A DNA stretch of 64,000 nucleotides from the NCBI GenBank assembly GCA_019247515.1, contig JAFAOS010000231.1:1-64000 (forward strand), in the 5' to 3' direction. The notes under the pieces are model-generated. The model searched no databases. It was not told where the DNA came from and saw nothing but the letters and a program-made list of their open reading frames with translations. The DNA is from Chloroflexota bacterium. Lineage in GTDB: Bacteria > Chloroflexota > UBA6077 > CF-72. Shown one piece after another: positions 36,520 to 38,762 of the stretch (its first letter is position 1; each line of letters begins with the position of its first letter). Both the position numbers and the translations under genes were made by a program.

Positions 36520-37414
36520 TTGGGGCGAGATCGCGAACTGGACCTCTCGGCACGCGCACTGAGCACCGATCCATACCAGACGTATGCACGCGCCTCCGCG
36601 CCAACCGTGGTGTCCACTACTGGTCAGGCACGCCCGAGCAACGCTTTGCCGTCCTCAGCCGGTACGCCGACGCGCGCCTGGCGTTGCGCGATCCGCGCTT
36701 CGGATCTCCGGGACCTGGCCACGTGCACCCGCGCGGCGGAGACGAATTCGTTCCGTCGGCGGCCGACATCGAGCCGGTGCGCCTTCAGCTGCGGGCCATT
36801 GCGACCGAGCTGCTCGAGGATTTGAGACCGCGCGACATGTTCGACGTGATCGCCGAGTTCGCTGCGCCTCTTTCGCGTTGCATCCTGTCGGAGATAAGGA
36901 GTTCTGCCCCAGTCGACGACCTGGCCAGCTGGGTCGAGCTGACCGTCGACCTGATTGGCAACGGCGCGCTCGCGCTGTTGAACCATCGCGACCAGCTGGC
37001 GTGGCTGCGCGCGACGCCGGAACAGGCCGGCGCCGCGGTCGATGAGCTGCTGCGGTTCGACGGTCCACTGCAGCGCACAGCCAGGGCGGCGCTGGTCGAC
37101 GTCGAGCTGCCCGAGGGCGACGTCGTCCAAGCCGGCGAGACGCTGACCCTGCTGCTTGGGGCCGCCAACCGCGACTACTCGCAGTTTGCCGAGCCGGACC
37201 GGCTGGACCTGGGCCGCTCGAACGCGAACCGACACCTGGCGTTCGGCGCCGGCAATCACGAGTGCCTGGGGTCGTGCTGGCGCGGCTCGAGGCCGAGGTT
37301 GGCCTGGGGGAGCTGGCGCGGCGGCTGCCGACACTGCATCTCGCCGAGTCGACGCCGCGCTGGCGGCCGAGCGTCGCGCTGCGGGGGTTGGAAGCGCTCT
37401 ACGTGGCCTGCTGA
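36520..37414 (+). pseudogene. Cytochrome P450 relic with two frameshifts and an internal deletion
   Basis: The relic begins at TTG 36520 with RALSTDPYQTYA, typical of bacterial P450 N-termini. Near 36590 the frame shifts (an extra CG in a CGCG run) into LRANRGVHYWSGTPEQRF and RYADARLALRDPRF. The K-helix AVDELLRFDGP and heme ligand loop HLAFGAGNHECLG are present. Near 37270, in a GGGG run, the frame shifts again to VVLARLEAEVGLGELARRL, ending at TGA 37412-37414. The I-helix with AGxxT is missing, so about 100 residues are deleted. It is therefore not a functional P450; the frameshifts alone could be sequencing artefacts but the deletion is not. Confidence 0.65.
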
Positions 37415-37780
37415 AGCGGGGCCAGATCTCGTCGTCGGCGATCTCGTGCCGAAGACAAGGGGAGACCCCTTGACCCCCACGGGGATTCCGCCGGCTGATG
37501 TGCGGGCAGTGATGGGCGTGCTCCTCATGCTGCCGCCCACGGATTTCCTGTCTTGGCTGCATGGCGCACGAGTTCAGGTGGCGGGTCGACCAGTGTGTCG
37601 CTGGCACCTCGCATCCTGGGCCGCGGATAGTGCCACTGTGCGGCGGCATCGGACTTCGACGTCTTCGACACGTCGAGATCGGCGACGACGAGATTCTGGC
37701 CCACGTTCGACAACGAACCCGCTGAATCCGGTTACAATAGGAGTGTTCAGCCCCAAACACTCTTCAGGAGGTAAAGCAGC
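37415..37780. other. Intergenic region upstream of the candidate selenoprotein
   Basis: No gene is apparent in this 366-base gap. The last 50 bases hold a TACAAT (37733-37738) that could be a -10 element, an inverted repeat and a strong AGGAGG. The rest has no recognised feature. Confidence 0.5.
37733..37771 (+). promoter_or_regulatory. Leader of the selenoprotein gene: -10, inverted repeat and strong Shine-Dalgarno
   Basis: TACAAT at 37733-37738 resembles a -10 site; a -35 is not clear (TCGACA at 37708 is 19 bases away). GAGTGTT (37741-37747) and AACACTC (37756-37762) form a perfect seven-base stem with an eight-base loop, followed by AGGAGG (37766-37771), nine bases before the ATG. The stem ends four bases from the ribosome site and could influence translation. 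Confidence 0.5.
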
Positions 37781-38098
37781 ATGGCTGAAGGCAAAGCACA
37801 ACTGGAGATCCAGTACTGCGTTTCTTGAGGGTACTTCTGGCAAGCTGCCGGTCTGGCAGCGCAGATCTGTGCCGGACGGAATCGCGAAGTCGGTGTGACG
37901 TTGACACCCGTGGGCCAGGGCCGTTTCGAGATCTATCTCAACGGCGAGCAGCTCTATAACCGCAAGGAGCCGCCGACCGACACGGTCAAGGACCCGATTG
38001 GCGATGTGCGCGGTTCAAGCTCGGTCGCCGAGATGGTGCGCACCAAGCTGATGACCGCACTCGAGAACGCACCAGCGCCTGCCGCTTCGGGCCATTAG
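37781..38098 (+). CDS. Candidate SelW/Rdx-family selenoprotein with in-frame TGA (Sec16)
   Basis: Reading through one in-frame TGA at 37826-37828 gives a 105-residue thioredoxin-like protein of the SelW/SelT/SelH (Rdx) type: LEIQYCVS-U-GYFWQAAGLAAQI, then VTLTPVGQGRFEIYLNG and GEQLYNRKEPP. The TGA lies exactly at the second position of the family CxxC/CxxU redox motif (Cys13-x-x-Sec16). A strong AGGAGG precedes ATG 37781. A 6-bp hairpin with a five-base loop beginning GG starts 15 bases after the TGA, the place and loop type of bacterial SECIS elements. A nonsense mutation of a Cys codon is the main alternative. SelA, SelB and tRNA-Sec are not in this window. Confidence 0.78.
37844..37860 (+). 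promoter_or_regulatory. SECIS-like hairpin downstream of the in-frame TGA
   Basis: GCTGCC (37844-37849) pairs with GGCAGC (37855-37860) around the loop GGTCT. Two G residues open the loop, 21 bases after the TGA, within the usual distance for bacterial SECIS. An outer four-base TCTG/CAGA pairing can extend the stem across an internal loop. The element lies in coding sequence, as bacterial SECIS elements do. Confidence 0.65.
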
Positions 38099-38137: not shown

Positions 38138-38169
38138 GATCCGCCGCTCAACGCGCGGCGGGTCTTTTT
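38138..38169. terminator. Bidirectional intrinsic terminator
   Basis: A ten-base stem, one G-U pair included (GATCCGCCGC with GCGGCGGGTC), encloses a seven-base loop and is followed by TTTTT on the plus strand and preceded by AAAA, giving a T-run on the minus strand. It ends the selenoprotein transcript and lies at the end of the convergent decarboxylase gene, whose stop codon sits in the loop. Confidence 0.85.
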
Positions 38170-38762
38170 GTGTCTCCGGCCCCGGTGTTCTGCAGCCAGT
38201 CGCCGAATTCGCGAGCAAGCACCACCGGGTCTTCGAGGAAAAAGTCCGTTGTCGGCTGCTCGGTGCCCACCGGCACGCGCAGCAAAATCGGCCCGTCGGT
38301 CGCGCTGGCCCACTGCAGCGCCTCGCGCACCGCTTCGACCTCGGACGCGACGACGCGCGCATCTGCCCAGCCGCACGCCCGCGCCACGCCCACCAGGTCG
38401 ACGCTCGCCGCCGCCGTCGGCTGGCCGCCTGTCGCCAGATAGACCCCGTTGTCGAGCACTACGGCCACCAGGTTGCGCGGCCGGAGGTGGCCGACCGTCG
38501 ACAACGCCGAAAAGCCCATCAGCAACGACCCGTCGCCTTCGACCACCACCACTCGCTCGCCGCGGGCACGACCCTCCATTCCAAGGGCAAGTCCCAGTCC
38601 AATCGCCAGCGGCTGACCCATCGCGTCCAGGCTGTACAGGTGATTGGGTTTGCGGCCGACCACGGCCAGCATCTCGCGGATGGTGCCACCCAGGGTGAGT
38701 ACCAGCGGTTGTGCGGCAAAGGCGGCGTCGATCAACTCCAGCGCCTCGGGTCGACTGAGCAC
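38148..38762 (-). CDS. TPP-dependent decarboxylase beta subunit (ComE-like)
   Basis: The 204-residue protein is the C-terminal, cofactor-binding half of a split thiamine-pyrophosphate enzyme: LDAMGQPLAIGLGLALG, VVVEGDGSLLMGFSAL and LDNGVYLATGGQPT supply the GDG...N motif that binds TPP and Mg. Related pairs include sulfopyruvate and phosphonopyruvate decarboxylases. The partner gene lies upstream (38770-39297), separated by seven bases. Any sulfopyruvate role is only by similarity; here neighbours suggest a keto acid from ring cleavage. The stop lies within the terminator loop. Confidence 0.78.
   Translation of the reverse strand: MLSRPEALELIDAAFAAQPLVLTLGGTIREMLAVVGRKPNHLYSLDAMGQPLAIGLGLALGMEGRARGERVVVVEGDGSLLMGFSALSTVGHLRPRNLVAVVLDNGVYLATGGQPTAAASVDLVGVARACGWADARVVASEVEAVREALQWASATDGPILLRVPVGTEQPTTDFFLEDPVVLAREFGDWLQNTGAGDTKRPAAR

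Follow-up and report, generated by a model that had tools for sequence, protein, structure and literature searches.

In a 64,000-nucleotide stretch of Chloroflexota DNA, referred to as the window, we found a gene of the SelW-like (Rdx) family that is interrupted by a single in-frame TGA. TGA codon 16 is predicted to be read as selenocysteine by the SelB/hairpin route, giving a SelW/Rdx protein with a Cys13-Sec16 redox pair, and we assign this reading a probability of about 0.96. The frame, the family, the selenocysteine machinery of the genome, the conservation of the TGA and a covarying hairpin were each read directly from the sequences. The features at the locus are as follows.

37733..37738, + strand: possible -10 box TACAAT, a weak candidate for the gene's own promoter; TACAAT stands at the same place in the sister locus L062
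37766..37771, + strand: Shine-Dalgarno sequence AGGAGG, with 9-nt spacing to the ATG
37781..38098, + strand: SelW-like (Rdx family) predicted selenoprotein gene, 105 residues with Sec16 read through
37826..37828, + strand: in-frame TGA, predicted to be read as selenocysteine, the U of the C13-V-S-U16 redox motif
37844..37860, + strand: bacterial SECIS-type hairpin, GCTGCC (37844-37849), loop GGTCT (37850-37854), GGCAGC (37855-37860)
38138..38171, + strand: intrinsic-terminator-like hairpin with a T-run, 3' of the gene, bidirectional and common to the convergent gene

The ATG at 37781 opens a frame that is closed by the TAG at 38096-38098, and apart from the TGA at 37826-37828 this frame contains no further stops or frameshifts. 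Each of these elements, together with the AGGAGG, had been pointed out in an earlier sequence-only reading and was present in the sequence. Codon 16 is TGA and residue 13 is Cys, giving the motif C-V-S-U and confirming the earlier placement of the TGA at the Sec position of a CxxU motif; the read-through product begins MAEGKAQLEIQYCVSUGYFWQAAGLAAQI.... Most relatives also have a GGAGG-type site upstream of the gene. The standard-code ORF list for the window has no entry in the frame of the SelW-like gene.

Matches to the gene were present in 71/301 sampled genomes of the phylum, and most of the matches contain one TGA. A clade-alignment scan of 84,980 species genomes returned 13 loci, all titled Chloroflexota or Chloroflexi and all from metagenome-assembled genomes. 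These 13 and the window make 14 orthologues from at least 11 different assemblies, and in 14/14 the TGA stands at the same codon. No Cys version of the clade was seen in the scan, though the scan patterns allowed one, and no relatives were found on viral contigs or on plasmids. In the wider SelW-like family the Sec16 position is occupied by a TGA or a Cys codon; the pattern among close and distant homologues is thus in line with the earlier claim of a selenocysteine at residue 16. In a tree, the 14 orthologues formed one all-Sec clade on a stem of 1.21 changes per column (support 100/99), with six Cys rows outside it and the deeper order without resolution. The clade motif C-V-[ST]-U-G-Y-F-W is invariant; identity to the window protein is 90% for L062 and 43-55% for the other members.

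The TGA might instead stand for a Cys codon (TGC/TGT), either mutated to TGA in what is now a pseudogene or misread as TGA in sequencing. A single base separates TGA from TGC, the genome holds two intact Rdx paralogues of the Cys type, and the adjoining cytochrome P450 looks frameshifted. Against this, the conserved TGA in 14/14 orthologues refutes the explanation in practice, and the frame has no other stops or frameshifts. Compared with its nearest relative, L062, the gene gave a dN/dS of 0.057 over its whole length and of 0.054 after the TGA, with dS about 1.4 (against the other relatives dN/dS was about 0.2-0.6, and synonymous sites were almost saturated). None of the 14 clade members showed other stops or decay, the signs that would have spoken against the sequence-only reading, and the dN/dS of about 0.05 after the TGA agrees with this. 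We regard a pseudogene or error as having next to no probability. Because of the strong purifying selection seen in the dN/dS, the sequence after the TGA is almost certainly translated.

The Pfam Rdx profile PF10262 matched the read-through protein at 42.0 bits (cut-off 22.6; E = 1.1e-10), and the NCBIfam profile TIGR02174 (SelWTH) matched at 35.8 bits versus a cut-off of 34.2, a narrow pass; both profiles were matched by 13/13 aligned clade members. The Rdx homology spans the TGA and is beyond chance at this E value, which bears out the earlier statement that sequence on both sides of the TGA matches the family. In a sequence search, a profile of the clade picked up the SelW-related crystal structures 2p0g, 2fa8, 3dex and 2obk. 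We used the clade alignment to build an AlphaFold model (pLDDT 73.7, pTM 0.66), which has its first strand at E6-13 and its first helix at H19-30, with C13-V-S-U16 where the two meet. When this model was searched with Foldseek, the best matches were the SelW-related 2fa8, 2p0g, 2obk and 3dex at E about 1e-5 (best 5.3e-6), with TM (target) of 0.61-0.79, and mouse SelW (2npb) was matched by fold at E 3.4e-3. The predicted model thus has the thioredoxin-like SelW fold expected of the family.

These results bear upon a further explanation, that the TGA is a true stop, with the 15-residue ORF serving as a peptide or regulatory leader and the 3' part translated separately or never. A standard-code gene caller would read the frame in just this way. 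The Rdx domain, however, runs across the TGA, taking in the first strand, the CxxU and the first helix; conservation is as high in the 15 N-terminal residues as in the stretch just after the TGA; and the hairpin is placed as a SECIS is. A true stop is accordingly given almost no weight.

The assembly that holds the window (8.3 Mb, 579 contigs, 93% complete, 6% contamination) was searched for the genes of selenocysteine synthesis and insertion, on whose presence the sequence-only reading depended, and selA, selB, selD and tRNA-Sec were all found. selA (546 bits) adjoins selB (351 bits) on contig C530; selD (366 bits) has its own in-frame TGA at the expected place; and there are two tRNA-Sec genes with anticodon UCA. 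Among related genomes, selA was above cut-off in 12/12 tested genomes with a TGA copy versus 4/8 genomes that yielded Cys copies only, selB was present in 5/5 tested close genomes, and tRNA-Sec was detected in 9/10 tested genomes, the tenth (G225) being a fragmentary assembly that has selA and selB.

Some details of these genes were recorded in passing. The selD TGA lies at L022:1531 (G000:C29) in the context GAG-U-ACK, and a GGU-loop hairpin stands about 32 nt downstream. The tRNA-Sec genes (L001:1501-1598, G000:C41; L002:1497-1594, G000:C171) are 98% identical across exactly the 98-nt gene and have unrelated flanks; tested relatives have at most one tRNA-Sec apiece. This may represent a real duplication, or it could reflect a contaminant contig, given the 6% contamination of the assembly. 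G225, which is of the same genus, carries two different Sec-type copies (L066:953-1258, G225:C13; L068:264-575, G225:C400).

The sequence-only reading had placed a hairpin 21 bases after the TGA; this distance holds for the start of the loop (21 nt), but not for the stem, which starts at 15 nt. The hairpin has 6 bp, a 5-nt loop and a stability of -10.1 kcal/mol. It conforms to every rule of a published bacterial SECIS model, which allows a loop of 3-9 nt with G in loop positions 1-2, a spacing of 16-37 nt, a stem of 4-16 bp and an MFE of at most -7.5 (PMC13188914). Taken alone it is weak evidence, because a conforming hairpin follows about 9% of the window's TGA triplets, and one of equal or greater stability follows 4.3%; it becomes significant only by comparison with relatives. 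A stem of such length would arise from codon choice at the AA-x-x-AA residues alone with p about 0.23, and for the window alone the MFE has a z-score of about 0 relative to synonymous shuffles.

The comparison with relatives was informative. In the alignment of the 14 orthologues, columns 21/33 pair as U-A, C-G or G-C (once U-G) and columns 24/30 as C-G or G-C, and both pairs fall at third codon positions on both strands of the stem. In register, 94% of the cells were paired versus 23-68% when the partner strand was slid 1-3 columns. Under a synonymous-codon null, applied to five representatives of distinct stems, 30/30 cells were paired versus 24.3 expected (p = 0.0004, a value that takes no account of common descent among the five). 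In a set of 30 SelW-like sequences from the phylum, 28 of them distinct, this stem at this distance was 90.5% paired, a level reached by 0/500 shuffles. All clade members have an apical loop of the form [A/G]GUNU, at a fixed distance from the TGA. The L062 hairpin has one pair fewer and at -6.7 kcal/mol, taken alone, just misses the -7.5 rule. The stem is thus kept across relatives and covaries at silent sites, and the earlier suggestion of a SECIS-like element gains by it.

The TGA could in principle be translated as Trp, Cys or some other residue in place of selenocysteine, through code reassignment or through near-cognate suppression, and readthrough of any kind would by itself also account for purifying selection on the downstream part. 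TGA nonetheless terminates several ordinary genes in the window (abhydrolase, TPP enzyme, amidohydrolase and others), and therefore the code is standard, without reassignment; the Sec machinery of the genome is complete, the TGA stands where relatives carry Cys, and the SECIS-type hairpin covaries. Translation as another amino acid is in our judgment highly improbable, though a shade less so than the true stop or the pseudogene.

For the selenocysteine reading, the following course of events is proposed. SelB with Sec-tRNA(Sec) would bind the short hairpin 3' of UGA-16 when the ribosome arrives at the UGA, and selenocysteine would be inserted instead of termination. The product would be a 105-residue thioredoxin-like SelW protein in which Cys13 and Sec16 most likely form a selenenylsulfide and are reduced again to thiol and selenol, as part of thiol-dependent redox chemistry. 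By homology we infer both the insertion and this redox role; the product is probably a thiol redox protein.

SelW-like bacterial selenoproteins have been catalogued since 2005-2008, in the Sargasso Sea and GOS surveys (PMC1088965, PMC2398784); in the latter they were the most abundant prokaryotic selenoprotein family, with 427 sequences and CxxU (PMC2398784), and a 2026 review lists them with PF10262 and CxxU (PMC13188914). The present gene shares with them the Rdx family, a CxxU with Sec second, a SECIS just after the UGA, and SelABD with tRNA-Sec in the genome; it differs in belonging to its own long-branched clade with the invariant octapeptide. The Rdx structures 2p0g, 2fa8, 2obk and 3dex have the same fold and are alignable across most of the domain, whereas 2p0g and 2fa8, the two shown aligned, have CxxC in place of CxxU. 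Mouse SelW (NMR structure 2npb) is alike in its CxxU motif (PMC8508763) and fold class. Its sequence is distant, at 14% in the structural alignment. The present gene also differs from vertebrate selenoprotein W in that its SECIS lies inside the coding region; eukaryotic SECIS elements lie in the 3' UTR.

The gene adds a well-supported new member to a known bacterial selenoprotein family, and the general picture is unchanged because SelW-like proteins already rank among the most common selenoproteins of bacteria. Chloroflexi were credited with selenoproteins by 2006 (PMC1794560), and we found no paper on SelW-like selenoproteins of Chloroflexota in the open-access library searched; the long-branched, all-Sec Chloroflexota clade is the mildly new part. 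It is conceivable, though we would sooner doubt it than accept it, that the CV[ST]UGYFW clade is a functionally distinct Chloroflexota SelW subfamily that has stayed strictly selenoprotein, has a partner or substrate of its own and exists alongside separate Cys-type Rdx proteins in the same cell. Automatic annotation would lose or truncate the gene, and therefore counts of selenoproteins are likely too low for those Chloroflexota that are known chiefly from metagenomes. The clade also offers a clean, covarying, minimal bacterial SECIS hairpin over silent codon positions, useful to train SECIS detectors.

The gene is a single-gene locus; no conserved neighbour genes were seen at the loci of the 13 relatives, where ORF translations were judged by eye. 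At L069 only, apparent TusA-like and DsrE-like genes lie upstream; the other loci are without them. In the window the gene is adjoined by a cytochrome P450 remnant (36684-37416, + strand). Near 37270-37300 its C-terminal end passes into a different frame, and this apparent frameshift may represent a pseudogene or an assembly error. A promoter scan gave no full sigma-70 site at the gene, a -35 was not found, and Rfam gave only sub-threshold chance matches there. Between the TACAAT box and the Shine-Dalgarno site lies a leader hairpin (GAGTGTT...AACACTC, window 37741-37762, + strand), which is not clearly common to relatives other than L062; in L062 it stands at the same place with a compensatory change (GAGAGTTC...GAACTCTC).
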